Source: an uncultured Dehalococcoidia bacterium (lineage in GTDB: Bacteria; Chloroflexota; Dehalococcoidia; Lucifugimonadales; GCA-2712585). Taken from it: a stretch of DNA of 55,210 nt. Positions 1-51,461 of this stretch are shown piece after piece. The stretch lies in assembly GCA_958295715.1 (NCBI GenBank), contig OY282372.1, positions 1 to 55,210 of the forward strand, read 5' to 3'. The position numbers were made by a program, and so were the translations under genes. The notes beneath the pieces are model-generated. The model was not told where the DNA came from. It searched no databases and was given only the letters and a program-made list of their open reading frames with translations. Numbering within the stretch: position 1 is the stretch's first letter; every line of letters begins with the position of its first letter.

Positions 1-600
1 TATCGCGGTTATATGCCTCGTTCGCATGTTGCCCGGGCCTCCCTCGGGGGGCGTCGGTGCGGGTGGTGTCTCCTGCTCCGGTACGGCTGGTGCGCCTGGA
101 GCGCCTCCAGCCGCCGGCACGAACCCCGGCGGAGCCGGCGCCCCGCCCCCCGCAGCCGTTGCCGGCGCCGACTGCTGTGCAGGCGGAGGCCCTGGCGGTG
201 GCGTCGGGGGGGCGGTTGATGCAGCGGCCGGCGGCTGGGCCGCCGGAGCAGGAGCGGGAGAGGGGGCGCCGCCCCCGAGGGTGCCGGGTTGCTGGCCCTC
301 CGGCACGGCCTTGCCGTGCTTGCCGACGTGGAGGGAGCGCGTCCCGTTCCAGTCTTTCCAGTTGGGGTTGATGATCTGAAAGATGATTCCGGGCCGAATC
401 ACGTCCACCCAGCCGTCCCAGCACATGCCGGCGCATTGCCCCGTCTCGTCGGCGAACACGACCTCCTTGCTGCGGTAGCCCTGGCCGCCTTTCCCGACGC
501 CCGACTTTACGGGGCCCTCTTGGAGGATCCACGCCCTCACGTTGCCGGCGCCGGCGCCGTAAGCGTCGGCCAGCGAGGAAAACTGCACGGGGCCCGCCAT
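1..600 (-). CDS. Single-stranded DNA-binding protein, OB fold (partial, 3' end outside window)
   Basis: The frame is open from the ATG at 600 to the left edge (200 codons seen). The start overlaps the stop of the upstream RHH gene as TGATG. Residues about 1-100 read like an archaeal RPA/SSB OB fold: a strand with FADETGQCAGMCWDGW, then IRPGIIFQIINPNW, then WNGTRSLHVGKHGK, the usual order DETG-W-G-I-N-WNG-L-VGK. After residue 105 the chain turns into a Pro/Ala/Gly-rich low-complexity linker that continues off the window, as in many SSBs with a flexible tail. It presumably coats viral ssDNA during replication. The OB-fold call is an inference from motif order; the rest is hypothetical. Confidence 0.62.
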   Translation of the reverse strand, partial: MAGPVQFSSLADAYGAGAGNVRAWILQEGPVKSGVGKGGQGYRSKEVVFADETGQCAGMCWDGWVDVIRPGIIFQIINPNWKDWNGTRSLHVGKHGKAVPEGQQPGTLGGGAPSPAPAPAAQPPAAASTAPPTPPPGPPPAQQSAPATAAGGGAPAPPGFVPAAGGAPGAPAVPEQETPPAPTPPEGGPGNMRTRHITAI

Positions 601-3271: not shown

Positions 3272-4111
3272 ATGCGGTTCTATTCCATGTTCTCGGGGAT
3301 CGGGGGCTTTGACCTCGGCCTCGAGCGGGCCGGCCACGAGTGCGTCGGCGCCTGCGAAAGCAACCCTGTCGCGGCCGGAATTTATTCTAGACACTGGCCA
3401 GGAGTCAAGATCGACAGGGACGCGCGGACAGTCGACCCTGATGCCCTACCTCGATTCGACCTACTCGCCGCCGGATTCCCGTGCCAGCCTTTCTCGCTTG
3501 GTGGAAAAAGGGGGGGAATGGGTGACGCCCGAGGGCTACTCTTTGTTGAGGCGCTGCGGGTGGCGAGATCCGCTTCGGTGCCATACGTACTCCTTGAGAA
3601 CGTGCCGGGACTCTTATCAAACTCTAACGGAAAAGCGTTTCACGCGATACTCAAGACCATGGATGAATTCTGGTATGATGCGGAGTGGCAATGTATTAAC
3701 GGGCGCCGTTTCCTTCCCCAGAACAGAAAGAGGCTGTTCATTGTCGGACGTCTTAGAAGGGTCCCCACCCGACAAGTGTTACCGATCGCCGGCGATGGTG
3801 AAGATGCTCAAGACCCACAAGGAGAAGCAAAAGGCGAAGGGGAACGGCTTCGGGATAACGACGTATGCGGGACTATCGCTGCGTCGTACTGGCGGGGGCA
3901 GACCCCGCTGATAGAGGAGAGCGGGGGGCGGCTGAGGATGCTCTCCTGTACGGAAGTGGAGAGGCTCCAGGGATTCCCCGACGGGTGGACCGAGTACGGC
4001 GCGGACGGGGAGCGGGTGGCCCGCACCAACCGGTACGCCTGCCTGGGGAACGCGGTCATGGTGCCCGTGGCCAAATTCCTCGGGGAGAGGCTCGCGGAGG
4101 CGGCTGCGTGA
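3272..4111 (+). CDS. DNA (cytosine-5-)methyltransferase
   Basis: 279 residues with the ordered motifs of C5 methyltransferases: motif I FSGIGGFDLGLE (7-18) for AdoMet binding, motif IV GFPCQPFS with the catalytic Cys71, motif VI ENV (109-111), motif VIII QNRKRLFIVGR (150-160), and the C-terminal motifs IX/X in LSCTEVERLQGFPDGW and NRYACLGNAVMVPVAKFL. The target-recognition region between VIII and IX is short (about 60 residues). It transfers methyl groups to cytosine C5, most likely to hide viral DNA from host restriction; the target sequence cannot be read from the protein. Downstream ATG overlaps its stop (TGATG). Confidence 0.93.
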   Translation: MRFYSMFSGIGGFDLGLERAGHECVGACESNPVAAGIYSRHWPGVKIDRDARTVDPDALPRFDLLAAGFPCQPFSLGGKRGGMGDARGLLFVEALRVARSASVPYVLLENVPGLLSNSNGKAFHAILKTMDEFWYDAEWQCINGRRFLPQNRKRLFIVGRLRRVPTRQVLPIAGDGEDAQDPQGEAKGEGERLRDNDVCGTIAASYWRGQTPLIEESGGRLRMLSCTEVERLQGFPDGWTEYGADGERVARTNRYACLGNAVMVPVAKFLGERLAEAAA

Positions 4112-20805: not shown

Positions 20806-22809
20806 TTGACCGCCGGCAGCGGAAGGGGAGGCTACCGGCCTACCGCAGGTCGAGACGCCGACATTGACCGTCTAGAAAAGATGATGATCGGCGCCGGCAT
20901 CTTAGGAGAGGGTGCGGGAGGCTCCGGCTATCGTGCGCCTCAAGACGACGATCCCCGCAATTCCATGAAACTTCCCCTTCCTGCCGCCACGACCGACGAG
21001 TTCTATGCTCAGCTGGGGTGTCCGTTCCGATCCTCAAAGAACGACGAGGTCGTCACCCAGCTCGCAAAGTACCAGATCAGGACGATCCGCAACCTGGAGC
21101 GCCACCGGAAGCTCCTCATCCTGAAATCACAAAAGATAGGGCTGTCCTCTCTTGGTATAGTGGACGTGTTAAGAAGGGCCCTCTCGGATTGCCAGGGGTA
21201 TGAAATAGTCATACTGGCCCAGTCCGAGGACAAAATCACGGAACACGGCAGGGACATGAAAAAATTCTTGCTGGACTCAGAGTTCGCGGACTATTATATC
21301 GAAAAGCAGTGGCAGAACCCCGGGCGCCTCAAGGACGAGGTTTCGTCCCGCTATCACATATATTTGCAGAACAGAGACCTTACGTCCATAACGCCTACTC
21401 ATATACACATGCTTCCGCCATCCGTGGGCAGGATTGGGTCGCTAAAGAGGGTGAAGCATATTTGGTGCTCTGACATAACGATGGTCGACTTTGTCGTGGA
21501 GCGGCAGCGCGACTACTTTATGACCTTACTCTCTAGGATAGTAATGACGGAGGGAACCATTTTCATCGAATGTCCCTGCGTCGGGCACCTCGGCCCCATA
21601 TACGAAAAGGATCAAGAGTTCCAGGACATGGTGAAGGCCGGGATAATAGATCCCGAGAGCGGCGAGGTCCTAAAGACGGACAAACTGGATCCGGCCGTGG
21701 CCGAGCACATGTTCTACGTTGATAGAATAAGAGTCCAAGAGGCCATCGACGAGGGCATCTTATCCAAGAATGCCATAGAAGCCCTCAAGATCGAGCACGG
21801 GCCCGTATTCGGGGCCTTCTTTGAGGCCGACTGGTACGCGGGAGACGCGGCTTGGTTCGGGCCCGACCAACTGTCCTACGAGAGCGCTAGGGCTACCGAC
21901 CTCGCGGAGGACAGGATGAACCCCATGCCTGTTATGATGAACGAGAACGCCGTCGGAGGCCGAAGGACGCTGCCGGACGCCAGCGAGATACAACTGCCGG
22001 ATCCCGTCAAATTCAGGGATTCTGCGTGGTTCATCGGTTTGGACCCCGCCGCGCGCAAGAACAATTTTGGGATAGTCGTGTATGGCTTGAACCCGAAGCC
22101 AGACCGCTCCGTACCAAGGAACGGGCCAGCCGGCATCGGCACCCCTCCGACGCCGTACTGGGGCCCGTTCCTGAGGGATGCCTTTGACATAACTCATTTC
22201 AACCTTACCGAGACGGTACAATGGGTCCAGAACGTGATATTCCAGGCGTACCCGCCCCGCTTCTGCGTGATAGACGCTACCCGAGACACGACGGTAGCCG
22301 AGGAGTTCCAGAACAAGTATGGCGAGTCGAGGTGCCTGGCCCTCAAGGTCTCCAACCAGATCAACTACAACATGTTCGTCAACGCATACCACGTGTTCAG
22401 CGAGAGGGGTCCCGGGGCCCACGCCTGGCCCGTCATACCCAAAATGCTCGACAAGCGCAAGAGGATGGTATTCCGGGAGTACAAGGACCAGTTGGCTCAC
22501 GAGCGGGCCGCTTATACGGATTCCGGCCGCATATCCTTCCCCAAGCCCCCGGGACGGCAGAACGACGTCTCGCGGGCGGGCCTGATGGCTTTGGAGGCTG
22601 TAAGAGAGTTCCAGTCGGGCCGCCTCGGAAATCCGGACGATCCCGTGTCCTGGGGCTCCGGAGGCGCTCCCACCAGTACAATACTCCAAAGATCCCAGAT
22701 ATCGCGCATGGCCGCCGCCGATGCCGAAAAGATCAAGCAGGAGGCATTCGATCGCGAGGAGGAGGAGACGTACGGCAGGGGGAGCTCGTTCATGCAGAGC
22801 CCGCCCTGA
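20806..22809 (+). CDS. Terminase large subunit
   Basis: 667 residues from TTG 20806 (ATG 20881 is an alternative). The ATPase half has a degenerate Walker A LKSQKIGLSSLG (K107-G117, like the KSRQ.G.S form of many large terminases) and a Walker B-like HIWCSDI (D223). The nuclease half has the RNase-H-fold acidic residues: FIGLDPA (D412), CVIDATRD (D489) and QNDVSRAGL (D586). It pumps DNA into the prohead and cuts it at the start and end of packaging. Length and order are typical of archaeal and bacterial tailed viruses. Confidence 0.9.
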   Translation: MTAGSGRGGYRPTAGRDADIDRLEKMMIGAGILGEGAGGSGYRAPQDDDPRNSMKLPLPAATTDEFYAQLGCPFRSSKNDEVVTQLAKYQIRTIRNLERHRKLLILKSQKIGLSSLGIVDVLRRALSDCQGYEIVILAQSEDKITEHGRDMKKFLLDSEFADYYIEKQWQNPGRLKDEVSSRYHIYLQNRDLTSITPTHIHMLPPSVGRIGSLKRVKHIWCSDITMVDFVVERQRDYFMTLLSRIVMTEGTIFIECPCVGHLGPIYEKDQEFQDMVKAGIIDPESGEVLKTDKLDPAVAEHMFYVDRIRVQEAIDEGILSKNAIEALKIEHGPVFGAFFEADWYAGDAAWFGPDQLSYESARATDLAEDRMNPMPVMMNENAVGGRRTLPDASEIQLPDPVKFRDSAWFIGLDPAARKNNFGIVVYGLNPKPDRSVPRNGPAGIGTPPTPYWGPFLRDAFDITHFNLTETVQWVQNVIFQAYPPRFCVIDATRDTTVAEEFQNKYGESRCLALKVSNQINYNMFVNAYHVFSERGPGAHAWPVIPKMLDKRKRMVFREYKDQLAHERAAYTDSGRISFPKPPGRQNDVSRAGLMALEAVREFQSGRLGNPDDPVSWGSGGAPTSTILQRSQISRMAAADAEKIKQEAFDREEEETYGRGSSFMQSPP

Positions 22810-22817
22810 TCACACAC

Positions 22818-22823
22818 TTAATA
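22818..22823 (+). promoter_or_regulatory. TATA-like box of the portal gene
   Basis: CTTAATAG is centred about 26 nt before ATG 22846. Confidence 0.45.
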
Positions 22824-22845
22824 GCGTCCATGCGGGCCGTATAAC

Positions 22846-24837
22846 ATGGTCGAACGCGTCCGGAAGGAGGAATTGGACAAGACCCCGCGTATAGACGTGT
22901 ACTCTCTGGGGCGGCCCGATTCCTTCGTTCAGAAGGAAATGGACTACTTTCCCGAACTTGACCCGAGGGCGGTCGACGGCCCCGACCGAGAGGCCATACT
23001 CGCCTTGAAGGACGGGACGTACCGCCCCTACATGCAGACCGTCGATTACAGGGGGCAGGTCATGCAGGCTGACTCTCCCGAGGACGGGAATGGCAAGATG
23101 GTGATGGTCGCCTCCATAGACACCAAGAAGGCGGGGCCCGTCATTCCGCTGCACGGAGCGGGAACGTTCCGCCTCATGCCCCACCCGTACGAATCCAGAT
23201 CCGCCGCGAGCCGTTCAATATCGGGACCGGGCAGCATGGTCATATCTCCCACCCTGGGCGGCCTCGCCTCCCCGGGCGGCGGCATCACGGGGGAGGCCCA
23301 GCGCATAGGGCAACTGGAACGGATGTACGGCAACAAGATGAACCGCTCCCCCATCCGGCGCAAATACTACGCTAACCCTAGACAGTATTACGATCACGTA
23401 TTATTGGCCGATGCCTACGCGAATACCTTCGCGGGGACGATAGCCGAGACTTTGGTGGATTTCGTCGTAGGAAAGGGCGTCTATCCCAAGATGGCCCTGC
23501 GCAAGCCGTCCGGAGACGCCGAGGCGGACAAGAAGGAACTCGAGGAGGCGCGGGAGACCCTGGACACTTTGAACGCCATAGACGACTGGTACTCCGATAC
23601 CGCCTATAAAGAACAGGACACGTGGTTCGACATTCCCTTCCAGGATAAAATAAAGAGCGCCGTCCTGCTGATGTTCGTGTTCGGCAGGGACTGCATCGTA
23701 AAAGAGAGGTGGGATCACATGGCCATGCCGGAGGATGCCATCGACTTGCCGTCCAAGCCGGAGGGAAACCGTTCGTTTTTGGAAGGCGAGCAGGAACTCC
23801 CGAACGTCCTCAAGGTCATACATCCGATAGAGATGGGCCTCACCGAGGTAGAATTGTATTCGGGGAAGGTGGCGGGCCTGTGGATCTCCAACGACCAGCC
23901 GTACGTTCCCATGTCCCAGATGATGTATTTCGTGAACGGCCATTCCTCGCCGATGATAGGGACCGCCACGTACGGCTATTCCCGCCTGCAGCGATGCATA
24001 GCCCACACCAGATTGTACCGGAGGCTGTTCGACGTGAACTTTCCGCAATATTTGAGGGCGTCCGCCACGGGGATGGGGGCGTTCGTGATGAACACGACCG
24101 GCTACCCGGCGGCCGTGAGGAACGCCATGCGCGAGAGCCTGCGCAACATCTACACTACGGGCGAGATCGCCGTCATAGACTATGCGAACACGGACGATTT
24201 CGAGTGGAAGGAGTTCAAGATAAACACGGACATAGTGGCCCTGAAGGATCTGGAGCAGTCCCTCCTTGGAACGATAAGCACCGTCCTGGGCGTCCCGCAC
24301 AGCATAGTTTTCGACTCGGCGGAATCCAGGGCCACGCTGATAGGGCGCATAGTAACGTTCCAGAATACTACGGTAGAAGCGGCCCGGGCCAACATAGGGA
24401 GGCAACTCGTCCAGCAGTGGTGGCTCCCCAACCTCCGCAGGATCCAGTCCGAGGAATTCCTCAAAAAGTTCACCGTAGTAGCAGAATACAGGGAACTTTC
24501 CCTGGAAACGAAACTCGAGAAGGTGGAGCGCCTCCTTCAGGAAACGCAGTTGAACCCGTACAAGGACTCGTACCTGGGAGAGGAGCTCGGGATATCCGAC
24601 TACCTGTCAAAAATAGACGAGGAGAAACTCGAGGAGCAAAAGCAGCAGGAGCAGGACATGATCGACGCCAAGGCCAAGGGGCCGCCCTCCGCCCAGTCCG
24701 CAGCCGGCGCCGACGGCGGCAAGAAGGACGGCGGCTCCAAGGGACCGGCAGGCCGCGCCAACTCAAAGAACGGCTCGCCCCTTTCCACTAAACGGGAGAC
24801 GATGAAGCGTCGCGGGACGGGGAGCGGGAGCAGTTGA
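22846..24837 (+). CDS. Portal protein
   Basis: 663 residues following the large terminase. Features of portal proteins: the early YYANPRQYYDHVLLADAYAN helix region, the beta-rich wing (ELYSGKVAGLWISND), and the SLLGTISTVLGVPHSIVF segment before SRATLIGRIVTFQNT and a long helix, in the usual order for SPP1/HK97-type portals. The C terminus is Lys/Ser/Gly-rich and disordered. It forms the dodecameric ring through which DNA enters and to which the tail joins. Stop overlaps the next TTG (TTGA). Confidence 0.85.
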   Translation: MVERVRKEELDKTPRIDVYSLGRPDSFVQKEMDYFPELDPRAVDGPDREAILALKDGTYRPYMQTVDYRGQVMQADSPEDGNGKMVMVASIDTKKAGPVIPLHGAGTFRLMPHPYESRSAASRSISGPGSMVISPTLGGLASPGGGITGEAQRIGQLERMYGNKMNRSPIRRKYYANPRQYYDHVLLADAYANTFAGTIAETLVDFVVGKGVYPKMALRKPSGDAEADKKELEEARETLDTLNAIDDWYSDTAYKEQDTWFDIPFQDKIKSAVLLMFVFGRDCIVKERWDHMAMPEDAIDLPSKPEGNRSFLEGEQELPNVLKVIHPIEMGLTEVELYSGKVAGLWISNDQPYVPMSQMMYFVNGHSSPMIGTATYGYSRLQRCIAHTRLYRRLFDVNFPQYLRASATGMGAFVMNTTGYPAAVRNAMRESLRNIYTTGEIAVIDYANTDDFEWKEFKINTDIVALKDLEQSLLGTISTVLGVPHSIVFDSAESRATLIGRIVTFQNTTVEAARANIGRQLVQQWWLPNLRRIQSEEFLKKFTVVAEYRELSLETKLEKVERLLQETQLNPYKDSYLGEELGISDYLSKIDEEKLEEQKQQEQDMIDAKAKGPPSAQSAAGADGGKKDGGSKGPAGRANSKNGSPLSTKRETMKRRGTGSGSS

Positions 24838-43235: not shown

Positions 43236-45422
43236 GTGGATCTTGACAACCCGTTCGGCGGGGCATACTTTTTCACGGGTCTGGCGTACGACCACACGAC
43301 CGACAAGTGGGTCGCGCTGGCATCGAACACCGCCTTGAATACCGTGCGCCTCTTGATATACGACGGCTTGGCGAACCTGCAAGCGGACACGCCCGCCCGC
43401 ACGACCGGAGTAATATCGCTAGGAGCGACCATCATACACGGCTTCAGCACGCACGCGGCGGCGTACGGCGGCTACGCGTACATCACGTCGTTCGGCGCGA
43501 CGTGGATAAAGCGCGTGGCCATCGGAGGCGCGTCCGCCGCAGCCATGAACGCGGAGGACGTGCCGACCCCGGGCGCGACCTCGACGCCGCTCACGGTGGC
43601 GTCGGCGGGCATTGGCGACGGGCCGAACGGCGTGTGGGTGCAGCCGGCGACCGCGAACACAATTCGCGAGATCGGCGGCACCGGCGGCACGTGGGAGTAC
43701 CGGCGCACTTTGTACGGCGCCGTGGGCAACGACGACTTTGCCATCACGCCCGAATACTTGTGGCTGTCCTCGTCGGGCACGCTGTTCCTGCGCCCCGTAA
43801 AGGCGGCAACTCCCGCCGACGGCACCAACGTGGACACGATCGCGTTCGCGGGCGTGGTCGACGTCACCAACATCGACGACGTGTTGTATGCCATCAACAC
43901 GAATGGCGTCGTGATCGAGTACGACCACGACGTTACGTCCGCCGTTCCCGCCGCCTCGCATCGCTTCCGCCCGACCCGCCTCCCGCTGGGCGCCGCCTCC
44001 CGCCGCTACGGCGTTGCCCGCTCCTCTCCCTCCCCCGCGTGGCTGCGCATGGTCGAGGTCTCCAAGCAGATCGGCCTCGAGTCAGAGGAGTGGAGGTTGC
44101 GGCCTGGGGCGCCCGTTCCCGCCCAAGCGCCGGGCATGCCGCAGTTGGAGTTCACCGGCGGCTTGGCGGCCGACCAAGCGGACGGCTCCCGAAAGATGTA
44201 CGGGTTCGACCGCAACGGCATCGCGGAGTTCGAGGGCGCCGGCCTCGACCCGCTGGCCGCCAAGGTGAGGACGTTCGCGACGCCCTCGGCCATCGAGCCC
44301 AACTGCTTGGCGGTGCAAGGCGATTCCCTGTGGGGCTGCCGCACCCCTGGCACCACCATCGTGGTTTCTGAATACAGGATACCGGCCAGCGGGACGGCAC
44401 TCGAACATGATTTCACGGCCGACACGGGAATAACGGGGAGGGCGTTCGGGTTAACGTTGCGCGGTATAGGACCTTTTATCGGGTTGATCCTTTACGAGGC
44501 AGGAGGCACGCATTACGTCGGCCGATTACGCACCAATACCGTCATAGAAGAAGCGACAATAACAAATGTGAGCGCCGTCGACTCGTCGCTGGACAGGCCG
44601 AGAAGCATCGCCTTTACCGGTTTAGTGGGAGAGCCGGACATCCGGATATACATCGGCGAGCGGAACGGGCGCATATTCGCGTTCGGGCCCCCCATCACCG
44701 GCACGGCTTCCTTGGGACAGCGCCTCCCGCAACTGGACGCGACGATCCCCATCGGCAACGCCGCCGTCGCCGGCCTCACCATAGACAGCGCGGGGATAAT
44801 GTACGCCCTGCGCCGCCAGCCTGGCGACGTGTACTCGCTGTACCTCCACCGCGCGGACGCCCCCCCGAGCTGGGGCCGCCACGGTACAGTGCGCCGCGCC
44901 CTCGCGTCGGCGTGGGGGCGCCACCGCTTCGCCGACTCGGAGACGTCGTCGGCGTGGGGGCGCCACCGCCCCGTACTGTCCGAACAAAAGACGGCGTCCC
45001 GCAGGTGGCGCGCGGCCGCCTCCGTGCTAAAGTCGGCATGGTACAGGCACGGCCCCGTCCTGTCGGCCATAGACGATGTGGCGTGGACGAGGTGGCGCCC
45101 CGCCCGCGCCTCCAAAAATACGGGGTGGGGGCGCCACCGGTTCGCGGATTCGGAGACGGCGGCGGCGTGGAGGCGCTGGCGGCCCGCCGCCTCTGCTGTA
45201 AAGGCCGGCTGGCTCCGGCACGCCCCCATAAGGGCCGTCCTCCAGTCGGCCTGGCGGAGGTGGCAGCCCGTCCGCGCCTCGGCAAGGACGGCCTGGACGA
45301 GGTGGCGGGGGGTGCGGGGGGTGCTGGGGGCGGCGTGGTTCCGTCGCGGCCCGAGCAGGGCCCCCCGCTTCAGCGTCAGGCAGAACATCGCGGGCGTCCG
45401 CAAGCGCTACCTGCGCCTCTAG
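43236..45422 (+). CDS. Beta-propeller-like virion protein with C-terminal aromatic/basic repeats
   Basis: 728 residues from GTG. Residues 1-540 show repeated four-strand patterns (FFTGLAYDHTTDKWVALAS; YAYITSFGATWIKRVAIGG; VLYAINTNGVVIEYDHDVTS; IYIGERNGRIFAFGPPI), as in WD/NHL-like propellers used for receptor binding. Residues about 545-720 are twelve 13-15-residue repeats with W-x-R-H-R or W-x-R-W-R and a basic/Ala tail. The repeats may form a beta helix or filament. No TATA box found before it; may be co-transcribed with the 42464 gene. Confidence 0.55.
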   Translation: MDLDNPFGGAYFFTGLAYDHTTDKWVALASNTALNTVRLLIYDGLANLQADTPARTTGVISLGATIIHGFSTHAAAYGGYAYITSFGATWIKRVAIGGASAAAMNAEDVPTPGATSTPLTVASAGIGDGPNGVWVQPATANTIREIGGTGGTWEYRRTLYGAVGNDDFAITPEYLWLSSSGTLFLRPVKAATPADGTNVDTIAFAGVVDVTNIDDVLYAINTNGVVIEYDHDVTSAVPAASHRFRPTRLPLGAASRRYGVARSSPSPAWLRMVEVSKQIGLESEEWRLRPGAPVPAQAPGMPQLEFTGGLAADQADGSRKMYGFDRNGIAEFEGAGLDPLAAKVRTFATPSAIEPNCLAVQGDSLWGCRTPGTTIVVSEYRIPASGTALEHDFTADTGITGRAFGLTLRGIGPFIGLILYEAGGTHYVGRLRTNTVIEEATITNVSAVDSSLDRPRSIAFTGLVGEPDIRIYIGERNGRIFAFGPPITGTASLGQRLPQLDATIPIGNAAVAGLTIDSAGIMYALRRQPGDVYSLYLHRADAPPSWGRHGTVRRALASAWGRHRFADSETSSAWGRHRPVLSEQKTASRRWRAAASVLKSAWYRHGPVLSAIDDVAWTRWRPARASKNTGWGRHRFADSETAAAWRRWRPAASAVKAGWLRHAPIRAVLQSAWRRWQPVRASARTAWTRWRGVRGVLGAAWFRRGPSRAPRFSVRQNIAGVRKRYLRL

Positions 45423-45461: not shown

Positions 45462-46064
45462 ATGCCGGTGATGGCAAGCGAGCTCACCATAAGGTACTCC
45501 ATAGGTTCCACGGATCCGACGCGCCTCTTTCGGCCCGGGACAGACCTCTCCATAGGGGGCACCATATCGACGAACGCCATAGTGCAGAACCCCCCCTCCG
45601 CGCTCAAGCACAACCTGTTCGACGTGATAACAGGGGCCCAGAGTTCGGCGGGATATACCGACTACCGCATAGTGTACGCGCACAACGCCTCGGCGCTGAC
45701 GGCGTTCGACTTCAAGGTGTTCATCCCCCGAGGGGGGGCTCCGAGGAACAACCCCATCAACTACTGGGGGGAGGATCCCGCCACGAACACGTTCGATCCC
45801 GACACGGATATGGGGTTCTGCGAGATGGGCGTTTCGCCGACGGTGCGGGCCAACGCCGTGGCCGCAGTCCTCGCCAGCGAGACGACGGCGCCCCCCTCGG
45901 ACATAGTCTGGGGGGAGCCGACGCCGACGGCGCCCCTCCAGTTGGGGGACATCGCGGGCTCGGGGTTCAGGGCCGTCTACATAAAGAGAACGATCCCGAG
46001 CGGGGCCGTCGCCTGGAATGATGCCGAGTTCGACATAGCGGCCAGCGCAGACACGGGTCAGTAG
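45462..46064 (+). CDS. Virion structural protein, beta-rich (paralogue of 42464)
   Basis: 200 residues. ATG 45462, with MASEL (45471) as alternative. TDYRIVYAHNASALTAFDFK and FRAVYIKRTIPSGAVAWND match the 42464 product in order and spacing. Lies between the propeller and the beta-helix fibre, suggesting a joining or adhesin-base protein. No enzyme motif. Confidence 0.5.
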   Translation: MPVMASELTIRYSIGSTDPTRLFRPGTDLSIGGTISTNAIVQNPPSALKHNLFDVITGAQSSAGYTDYRIVYAHNASALTAFDFKVFIPRGGAPRNNPINYWGEDPATNTFDPDTDMGFCEMGVSPTVRANAVAAVLASETTAPPSDIVWGEPTPTAPLQLGDIAGSGFRAVYIKRTIPSGAVAWNDAEFDIAASADTGQ

Positions 46065-49000: not shown

Positions 49001-50022
49001 TCGTGTGGGAGTGGGACGCGCCCACGGCAGGAATCCCGGAGCGCCGCGCCCTCGGTTTCCTAAAGGCCACGCACCCCGTCTCCATGCTGGCTCCGACGGC
49101 CAGCCTCGGCCCCGCATACGTCATAGAGTACGACATGGGGCGGGCCGCGACGTTCCAGGTTACCGACGCGGCCGTCAGGATCGCCGAAAAGATCCGCAGC
49201 GCCGACGACTACCTCCGCGTCGTCATAACGTCGGTAGAATGGGTGACGCGCCACGAGGCCACCGTCGACGACTTCAAGGCTGACCTCTCCGCTATAGACC
49301 TGAGCAACCTCGACGTGAAGGTGTCGTCCCGCATGCCGGCCAGCGACTTCTTGCCGCCCTACCGCATCATAGAGCCGACGTACGACGGCACTCGGGGAGA
49401 GGGGGCGGTCAACGGCATGGAGGCCTCGGACGACGACTTTGCCGTGGACGGGGCCCATGTCCAGAGGAGCGGCGCCATCCACCAGACGGGGGAGATCCGC
49501 AGGGCCGTGTGGACGTTCCCCACGGTGAAGCCCGCACAGGACCTGTCCATAAGCGCCTCGCTGCAGTGGAAGCGCCCCGACGGGGCGGACTTTGACTCGG
49601 GGACGAGGGCGCAGGCCGCCATGACCGCCACGCTTTACGTCGGAAACGATTTGGACGGGACGAACGACACGGGGGCCACGAGCGTTCTTACCACGACGGT
49701 CCCGCACGGCGCGCAGGCGGCCCAGCCCGTCGTCTCGCTCGCCCTCACGGACGCCCAGCGCGCCCCCTTCAACAGCATAATGCTGAAGCTTGAGGGGGGG
49801 ACGGTGGGCCAGCAGAACCGCGCGTACCTCTGGAACCTGAAGGTGGAGGTGGACGGCCAGCGCTACATGCTCAACCGCATACGGTTCATCGACCGCATGC
49901 AGCGGGCCAAGATACACGCCACGGCGGAGAGCGCGGCATTCATAGAGGGCGGCGAGACCCTCAAGACTTTCGCCCGCCGCGCCTCTACGGTGGCCACCGA
50001 CTGGAGCGGCGGCCGCGATTGA
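46066..50022 (+). CDS. Right-handed beta-helix tail fibre (pectin-lyase-like)
   Basis: 1318 residues. The first third has short repeated turns (GGATLDIGG; YTIRNLTLIGGTMQIQARG; GGTIDGIRIERMHGG) typical of right-handed beta helices used by tail spikes and fibres. Then a helical insert (LDEWYDWLKWHKLQDAGN) and GTKFRSIRTTGTVNLS, VDEVRIPVPPNSIVNIT, as in long fibre proteins. Residues 930-1318 are beta-rich domains (LQVDIDGATESEAGN; VDDFKADLSAIDLSNLD). Likely host-receptor binding or surface-polymer cleavage; catalytic residues are not evident. Starts one nt after the previous stop. Confidence 0.6.
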   Translation: MAVSRNAAGLITVTGPQDGNLQTLNPSTSQNDVITARGVATIELEDDPLQRLSVASEARFVVASGTMSLDPETDTLFISGNAIVGNGGTGGVGDGAGGGIEVRGGATLDIGGETTGPGTSSSVADGVTYTAGTAVVFAKKGAGASDVATAAIYARANATVQLRGCTIISAAASRFDGPEGAVLGSNLIIQDVVWQNGRDEDTGYFAPRLFSPRYTIRNLTLIGGTMQIQARGSGGTIDGIRIERMHGGISVPGGNFGADTGPFVIKGVDGKHNSLVDISAFNGTLVRILNSLTGTDLNVDLQSRSHGNRSFGGFEFAQEIRFHVVDSAGNSIEGARTHVSDFVDGRFSDTGVDSQDNWWQKNIGINNGGSNSPGIRYNTQRNYSKVSGADGINAFLGNDAPLLGTKIFNLRPGQGDSTRGVAAQPSTLPAKPVIYRGMINDSSDMLPWSTDSYLHIAALQAITHKSDLVIDVETEMLLDPSITQTDQTIVAAYAGLAVNHAVLVKLITLTAARNLDEWYDWLKWHKLQDAGNVHPTRASMVASADGTVLDLGDYNVTVGNGGVLTAGTKFRSIRTTGTVNLSPLSNGRINIGYQDSTGKSILVKLGGFSTGVVWDADNGATLNWIPPHPAVDEVRIPVPPNSIVNITAKRDGFDYRKYTINAADVAELDVVLRRNTNVDLAETLNGENLISYHGLRTSLYDANIYFDSAPTPNVLRLGNVRLSGKQALTRALFDRRMGTQAAMEATHSYQGSGRAYDIFSNRMRWDLSWLTIGRQPTETNLETNPLTELRKLASWGLYTVGADDATPYLPPDNVDYFVTIDILANPLSPTSAELADAGVRMAENAEFQAAAARATAAVIDPQIEQVDADVKALSQQIRSLPIDELLQVDTIERVVPLTTSTPNIWSGVGGTTYAVAGGHLQVDIDGATESEAGNVAGTLNFEGFAPFTVTQPGNDRVVLRVTVRCQALGGSDRTVSPDLVWEWDAPTAGIPERRALGFLKATHPVSMLAPTASLGPAYVIEYDMGRAATFQVTDAAVRIAEKIRSADDYLRVVITSVEWVTRHEATVDDFKADLSAIDLSNLDVKVSSRMPASDFLPPYRIIEPTYDGTRGEGAVNGMEASDDDFAVDGAHVQRSGAIHQTGEIRRAVWTFPTVKPAQDLSISASLQWKRPDGADFDSGTRAQAAMTATLYVGNDLDGTNDTGATSVLTTTVPHGAQAAQPVVSLALTDAQRAPFNSIMLKLEGGTVGQQNRAYLWNLKVEVDGQRYMLNRIRFIDRMQRAKIHATAESAAFIEGGETLKTFARRASTVATDWSGGRD

Positions 50023-50189
50023 CCGCCAAGTGCAGCGGCGCGTGCGCTTCCCCCCCCTTCCGCAAGCGCTCCAACACGACCCCCTACGGGGACGGCTGGC
50101 GCTACTGCAAGCAGTGCGATCGGGCCATAAATTATTCGGGGTTGTACTGCCCCTGCTGCCGCTTGCGGCTCCGCGCCCGCGCCAGGTGA
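50019..50189 (+). CDS. CPCC-type zinc-ribbon protein (third short paralogue)
   Basis: 56 residues from TTG (TTGA overlap). CSGACASPPF, then NTTPYGDGWRYCKQCDRA, then YCPCCRLRLRARAR. The TPYG-GW-YC..C-YCPCC-LR series matches 8293 almost position by position and 4813 in layout. The TGA stop lies in the same frame as the long repeat frame that follows, so readthrough would fuse the two. Confidence 0.6.
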   Translation: MTAKCSGACASPPFRKRSNTTPYGDGWRYCKQCDRAINYSGLYCPCCRLRLRARAR

Positions 50190-51461
50190 TCGTACACGAC
50201 CAACAGCATCGGCCTCCTCGGGTACGGCCGCCGCTTCAATGCCGGCCTCCTCGGGTACGCGGCCTCGGCGGAGATCCGCACCCCCGTCTCCCCCCCCGCG
50301 GTCCGCACCAAGTACGACGTGAGGGCCACCATAACCGCCGCCGCGACCAGCACCGAATATAACGTGAGGGCGCGCGTCGCCGCGACCACGGCGAGCCTCC
50401 GCTATTCCATACTCGTCGTAATAACGGGGATCGCCGCAGCCAAGACCGAGTACGCGGTCCGCCGCATCGTATCGGGCACGCTCCCGTCATACTCGACAAA
50501 GTACGGCGTGAGGGCGCTCGTCGACATGGCCGCCGCCCGCATGCTGTACGATTTGATAAGAGTGCTCGTCATAATGCGCGCCAAACTGCGCTATTCCATA
50601 CGCAGCACCGTGGTCGCGTACGACCGACTCATCACCAACTACGACGTGCGAAAGACCATACGGGGGGGCGCCAGCGAGGTAATCTGGGACATCCGCCAGC
50701 CCGTGTCCGCCCCCCGTACCAAAACCGCGTACGTGGTGAGGGCACTCGTCTCAAAGTCGTACGAGACCGCCTACGGGATAATCGCCCGCGTGTTCGCGCG
50801 CCCCGCCGTCGTGCGGTACGACGTGAGGAACGGCATTACAGCCGCGAGTACCAAAATGGAGTACGCGGTGAGGAAGGGGGTGGCCGCTGCCGCCAGGGCG
50901 AGGACGGAGTATTCGTTGAGGGAGGCGAGGGAAATAACCGCGCGGACGCGGTACGGGATAGTGGGGCGCGTCTCCGCTTCCGCCGCCAGCATGGTAAGGT
51001 ACGCGGTCAGGACTGCGGTGGGGCCGTCGGCAACCATGGTGAGGTACGCGGTCCGCAGGACGGCGGCGGGGACGGGGGCGGACGGGCGGGCTGAATACGC
51101 GGTCAGGCGGGCGGTGGCGGCGGTTCCAGCACTCGCCAAATACGACATAGTGGGACGGATCCTCATGCCTCCAGTCCGCGTCGCGTACGACGTCAGGGCA
51201 AAGGCCACGAACCCGCCGCCCCCGGGTTCCGGCTCGTCCACAAGGCTGGAGCCGGTGCCCGCCGAAACCGAGTACGACGTGCGGCAGACGCTGACCGTAT
51301 CATACAGTTGCTCGTACGAAGTCCGGGCCGCCGTGCTTCCGGCGCCGTTCCGGATGAAATACAACGTTGATGTTGAACCCGCAAAAAACGCGGGGGGTGG
51401 AGTCCGCCTCACCTACATGGACAGCCTCTTGAATTCCAGGGGCGGCTACGGCACGGCCTAG
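50190..51461 (+). CDS. YDVRA-repeat protein, start unclear
   Basis: About 423 codons, made almost entirely of about 23 repeats of roughly 15 residues with consensus Y-[DAN]-V-R-x-x-V-x-A (STEYNVRARVAA; TKYGVRALVDMA; MVRYAVRTAVGP; ETEYDVRQTLTV). Repeats are recognisable from 50301, and the frame is open back to the in-frame TGA of the zinc gene with no ATG, GTG or TTG before GTG 50319. Probably a beta-rich filament or fibre, as short Y/V/R repeats suggest stacked strands. It ends convergent with the minus-strand operon. Confidence 0.5.
   Translation, partial: SYTTNSIGLLGYGRRFNAGLLGYAASAEIRTPVSPPAVRTKYDVRATITAAATSTEYNVRARVAATTASLRYSILVVITGIAAAKTEYAVRRIVSGTLPSYSTKYGVRALVDMAAARMLYDLIRVLVIMRAKLRYSIRSTVVAYDRLITNYDVRKTIRGGASEVIWDIRQPVSAPRTKTAYVVRALVSKSYETAYGIIARVFARPAVVRYDVRNGITAASTKMEYAVRKGVAAAARARTEYSLREAREITARTRYGIVGRVSASAASMVRYAVRTAVGPSATMVRYAVRRTAAGTGADGRAEYAVRRAVAAVPALAKYDIVGRILMPPVRVAYDVRAKATNPPPPGSGSSTRLEPVPAETEYDVRQTLTVSYSCSYEVRAAVLPAPFRMKYNVDVEPAKNAGGGVRLTYMDSLLNSRGGYGTA

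Follow-up and report, generated by a model that had tools for sequence, protein, structure and literature searches.

On sequence grounds, the product of the gene at positions 50196-51461 of a viral contig is a stand-alone, more divergent version of a 14-residue aromatic repeat found in many tailed phages, where it is appended to neck, tail and receptor-processing proteins. The contig was analysed whole (C2 of a two-contig, 2.40-Mb MAG; 55,210 bp, hereafter the window), and its DNA is that of an uncultured tailed virus. The repeat gene is a real protein-coding gene, as was first proposed from the letters of the window, and its array of Y-x-V-R units, which makes up nearly the whole protein, is in frame and ordered and comes after a fibre gene in both viruses in which it was found.

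Viral context of the repeat gene

A homologue search that took in 60 relatives along with 250 genomes from the order returned a single close homologue, which lies on a 37,163-bp viral contig in a second MAG whose label reads uncultured Dehalococcoidia bacterium. Comparison of the two contigs identifies them as related viruses, and the match of the homologue contig wraps round the ends of the window, as in circular or permuted genomes. Binning is the sole basis of the link to a Dehalococcoidia host, and this assignment is doubtful because the two viral contigs are alike in tetranucleotide usage (r=0.89) and unlike their own bins (r 0.48-0.61). Protein searches in IMG/VR and INPHARED gave no close relatives of the window protein, since the repeats are too diverged.

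The homologous protein is an orthologue with the same neighbours and the same conserved ends; it differs from that of the window in having 25 units instead of 23 and in the greater regularity of its units (RGRVDS). In both viruses the genes follow one another in the order fibre C-terminus, zinc-ribbon-like ORF, repeat gene, and then a gene on the opposite strand whose product starts with MSEN (Table 1). The fibre-like protein weakly matches proteins annotated as hypothetical in Vibrio phages GR7B and 1.031.O. The TTG start of the zinc-ribbon-like ORF overlaps the fibre stop and its own stop lies just ahead of the repeat gene; a family match was sought for this ORF and none was found.

Table 1. 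Features of the window and of the homologous contig
Feature	Position	Strand	Remarks
DNA methyltransferase gene, phrog_116	3272-4108		E 4.5e-76
728-aa protein with C-terminal W-x-R-H-R array (44871-45419)	43236-45422	+	not placed in the repeat class (z=1.3)
phrog_13135 gene	45462-46064	+	E 9.2e-13; recurrent neighbour of aromatic arrays
Fibre-like gene, 1318 aa	46066-50022	+	60% identical in homologous contig
Zinc-ribbon-like ORF, 56 aa, CxxC-type cysteines	50019-50189	+	cysteines kept in homologue
Putative Shine-Dalgarno-like AGGTGATC before ACG	50184-50191	+	from sequence
Repeat gene, ~421 aa	50196-51461	+	probable start ACG 50196, stop TAG 51459-51461; frame kept in homologue
Conserved N-terminal segment TTNSIGLLGYGRRFNAGLLGYA, possible anchor	50196-50261	+	13 consecutive residues identical to homologue
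Array of 23 units, period 15	50307-51383	+	consensus [TM]-x-Y-[DANSG]-[VI]-R-x-x-[VI]; class profile z=38
Conserved C-terminal segment VRLTYMDSLLNSRGGYGTA	51402-51458	+	VRLTYMDS same in homologue
Homologous repeat gene	L002 1498-2811 (G027:C3 / CATQGZ010000001.1)	-	43% identity, 25 units

Architecture of the array

The original prediction had counted about 23 repeats with a period near 15, and both figures are correct. The translation of 50190-51458 (plus strand) holds 23 [YW]-x-[VIL] units, 22 with Tyr and one with Trp (EVIWDIRQPVS), the aromatic codons running from 50313 to 51360. Successive units are most often 15 residues apart (12 times), the remaining spacings being 16 (four times), 14 (three), 17 (two) and 29 (one); that is, 15 of the 22 gaps show the regular 14-15 spacing of the class. 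Over 20,000 shuffles the maximum number of [YW]-x-[VIL] motifs was 17, and the shuffle maximum for Y-x-[VI]-R was 5, compared with 15 occurrences in the window protein.

Arg at +3 is absent from units 6, 11, 15, 19 and 23 (that is, from unit 6 and then from every fourth unit starting at 11) and likewise from units 8, 13, 17, 21 and 25 of the homologue. In both arrays, moreover, unit-to-unit similarity is highest at lag 4. The lag-4 peak and the recurrent Arg-less units point to a past duplication of four-unit blocks, which is more likely than a four-unit superperiod imposed by the fold, for example by propeller blades, because in other arrays the lag is 3 or no such peak is seen. Tandem Repeats Finder reported no array at the repeat gene, the units having diverged in DNA; the repeats are therefore old as DNA.

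The protein had also been described as lacking any other domain, which holds as far as known domains are concerned, but short conserved segments are present at both ends, the N-terminal one following the pattern TTNSIGLLGYGRRxxAGxLGYA.

Evidence for coding and position of the start

Eighteen units of the two proteins match one to one and in order (window 6-23 with homologue 8-25), the two-unit difference falling near the start. The score for this order is 522, against 388 +/- 21 for permutations, with none of 2,000 permutations above 467. Over the 391 aligned codons, differences amount to 0.47, 0.35 and 0.54 at the three codon positions, with dN 0.59, dS 1.15 (near saturation) and hence dN/dS about 0.5. 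That the region might be non-coding or satellite DNA in which a frame stays open by chance, an interpretation to which the non-canonical start and an antisense ORF that also holds repeats (50771-51412) could lend some colour, has a negligible probability in view of the codon-position pattern, the synonymous changes and the conserved unit order. Furthermore, the arrays of the two viruses are alike in protein and little in DNA, with no tandem DNA array. Random repeat number with loss of frame, the behaviour expected of a satellite, was looked for, and what was found instead is 23 and 25 units, in frame and with their order kept.

Translation probably starts at ACG 50196, because TTNSIGLLGYGRR is conserved up to this codon and a Shine-Dalgarno-like stretch lies ahead of it in both viruses (in the homologue, GGAGG 8 nt upstream of the corresponding ACG). 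From the ACG through TTNSIGLLGYGRR the two proteins are identical and all codon differences are synonymous; conservation between the viruses reaches no further upstream than this ACG. No in-frame ATG, GTG or TTG occurs between TGA 50187-50189 and GTG 50319. The latter, chosen by the mechanical caller, was rejected as a start, as it falls inside repeat 1 and the conserved reading begins upstream of it. Stop-codon read-through or frameshifting from the zinc-ribbon ORF was also discarded because the relative frames differ between the viruses: the ORF shares the frame of the repeat gene and ends in TGA in the window, whereas in the homologue it is shifted and ends in TAG.

A repeat class shared with other tailed phages

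The class defined in this analysis is a 14/15-residue aromatic phage repeat, whose 14-residue form reads [WY]-x-[VIL]-x-x-x-[VI]. A scan of IMG/VR with a DNA pattern for four 14-residue units recovered about 30 loci with array ORFs. Among the matches was also a family of low-complexity ORFs unrelated to the class, which was discarded, and a pattern with exact 15-residue spacing gave microsatellites and out-of-frame matches only. In other members of the class unit spacing is mostly 14, and the arrays extend virion proteins at the C- or the N-terminus, the attached domains including the head-tail adaptor phrog_442, the tail-tip phrog_1101/Phage-tail_3, Laminin_G_3 and, in L261 and L286, a SASA carbohydrate (sialate) esterase. 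No array was found in the plasmids searched, searches of Pfam and NCBIfam returned no model for the class, and literature searches retrieved no description of the repeat. Other viral contigs (for example L114, L145 and L213) often have ORFs with a further Tyr repeat of 14 residues, LDNRYYTETELDAGQ, which looks different.

To place the window protein, a class profile was built from 41 distinct phrog_13135-linked IMG/VR arrays, none of them from the viruses of the window. The profile scores z=38 for the window protein and z=48 for the homologue, with 25 units recognised in each, compared with z of at most 2.0 in six other window proteins; two of the 25 in the window protein are low-scoring fillers that are not among the 23. 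The Y-x-V-R protein thus belongs to the class, as judged by a profile independent of it. The PHROG phrog_6079 ('tail protein') matches the Trp/Tyr arrays of the class in L043 and in seven of eight further array proteins; an HMM search that listed matches to E=1 did not connect it with the protein of the window.

Comparable arrays occur in Aeromonas and Vibrio phages. A synthetic consensus matched the C-terminus of an Aeromonas phage tail protein, and the C-terminal arrays of such Casjensviridae proteins (Aeromonas phages AVP3 and 13AC503A) likewise consist of 14-residue Tyr repeats, APYGLQPGVIADLT; unlike the array of the window, they are fused to Phage-tail_3, occur in near-identical copies and, in AVP3, have Pro-Gly in mid-unit. 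In KVP40-type Vibrio phages (Straboviridae), reached through the genes neighbouring the arrays, gp15 (Pfam T4-gp15_tss, 5.9e-76) bears 7-16 such 14-residue aromatic units and is followed by a phrog_13135 gene. One of these phages has mainly Tyr in its units and others have mainly Trp, and the two aromatics therefore interchange at one locus. These arrays differ from that of the window in being appended to a T4-type tail-completion protein, in their period of 14 instead of 15 and in the V/I at +2, which is weak or absent in many units. In one member of the group (Vibrio phage 1.081.O, MG592456.1; L235 1192-2427), the gp15 array DNA, made of 42-nt units, is annotated as CRISPR spacers, evidently a misannotated coding repeat.

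It had further been suggested that the W-x-R-H-R repeats of the same virus share an origin with the Y-x-V-R repeats. By sequence this finds no support, the class profile giving z=1.3 (1.7 in the homologue) for the W-x-R-H-R array, which has Arg at +2 instead of V/I/L. The two arrays do resemble each other in their period of 14-15, and each W-x-R-H-R unit has one Trp plus Arg. What favours a link is position: the W-x-R-H-R gene adjoins phrog_13135 directly upstream, at the site of Trp-type class arrays elsewhere, and the Trp/Tyr interchange within the class counts in the same direction. The corresponding W-x-R-H-R-type protein of the homologue (G027:C3 about 21,860-22,900, L012, minus strand) contains three near-identical tandem blocks of ~64 residues, the product of a recent in-frame expansion.

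Association with phrog_13135

Neighbour scans placed phrog_13135 beside the arrays in L045 and L071 and near the array in L103, which led to the KVP40-type phages. In a sample drawn independently of the arrays, namely 80 IMG/VR loci with a phrog_13135 gene of about 180 aa (L240-L319), 45 have an aromatic-array ORF no more than about 5 kb away on the strand of phrog_13135, directly adjacent in 30; this count leaves out one locus with an antisense match only, and near-duplicates reduce the sample to about 74 distinct loci. In a control of 80 head-protease loci, less diverse than the test loci, an array occurs in two, namely in the phage from which the query was taken and in one related to it (Fisher p about 5e-15). 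Loci retrieved with the Trp pattern had been considered as a control and were replaced by the head-protease set because they were selected for the pattern.

Across unrelated phages the arrays lie on either side of phrog_13135, on its strand, and in L255 they flank it on both sides, as they do in the window. Here the phrog_13135 gene is 4.2 kb upstream of the repeat gene, on the same strand; it is not directly adjacent and counts as linked, and a distance of 1.3-4 kb downstream of phrog_13135 is seen for several other arrays too. It is possible that phrog_13135 and the adjacent aromatic array form a two-gene unit.

Proposed function and alternative explanations

We consider it an even chance that the product of the repeat gene is a free-standing protein of the virion surface with one strand per repeat, serving as a spacer, as a multivalent surface binder or as both; the virion location is proposed because the context of the class is structural and the repeat gene comes after that of the fibre in both viruses. 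Each unit of 14-15 residues would form one amphipathic beta strand followed by a short turn, with the aromatic at 0 and V/I at +2 and +6 on one face and Arg at +3 on the other, and the units would build a long repeated beta structure. The conserved ends would probably attach the protein to the fibre or the distal tail, and the array could act as an extended spacer or bind the cell surface or polysaccharide through many low-affinity contacts. The same role is plausible in other phages, where the repeat is joined to neck, tail-tip, lectin-like and sialate-esterase proteins.

Structure prediction, which had been recommended as a check, gave no usable model. AlphaFold2 returned a meander from the two orthologues (pLDDT 39.8) and a solenoid-like model from a 20-row repeat alignment (pLDDT 48.2); one strand is present in nearly every unit of both, but confidence is very low and the topologies disagree. 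No PDB sequence is related to the repeat, and a Foldseek search with the second model gave no meaningful PDB match (best E=0.067).

The lack of a known enzymatic or binding domain, the array length and unit order kept in the two viruses, and the position of the gene, with the fibre gene and then a small zinc-ribbon-like ORF ahead of it, would also suit a non-structural assembly factor, that is, a scaffold, chaperone or fibre length gauge absent from the finished particle. This is rather improbable, as the repeat of other phages forms one polypeptide with structural proteins (gp15, tail-tip), which is unexpected for a transient factor. Such fusions, extending to adaptor proteins, argue likewise against a homotrimeric fibre shaft, for example a triple beta-spiral, since gp15 and adaptor proteins form rings and not trimers. 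A shaft would be suggested by the similar period (14-15) and strand-turn pattern, by the array that makes up the C-terminus of a tail-tip protein and by the neighbouring fibre gene in the window; the hydrophobic positions of the units (-2, 0, +2 and +6), however, differ from the adenovirus pattern, and most arrays are without a conserved Gly/Pro turn. We rate this slightly below the assembly factor.

The amphipathic strand pattern could finally belong to a membrane or outer-membrane beta barrel involved, for example, in lysis or entry, and a holin gene does adjoin one array (L108). DUF481 matches over arrays are weak (0.054 in the window protein, 4.9e-7 in L043), the score of the window protein (14.0 bits) being below the Pfam cut-off of 21.1. 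With no evident signal peptide, and with arrays fused to neck, tail and esterase proteins, a barrel is very unlikely.

Implications for tailed phages

Beyond the virion-surface protein proposed for the window, a wider reading, tentative and somewhat short of an even chance, is that the repeat is a so far unrecognised, exchangeable surface module that has moved among proteins of the neck, tail tip and adaptor as well as lectins and esterases, and that it forms a two-gene unit with phrog_13135, which would cap, anchor or assemble the array, the window holding a free-standing version. The class is widespread in environmental phages, yet Pfam and NCBIfam returned no model for it. Through the partnership with phrog_13135 and the gp15 arrays of cultured Vibrio phages such as KVP40, the structure, location and function of the repeat can be studied at the bench with no need for the uncultured virus.
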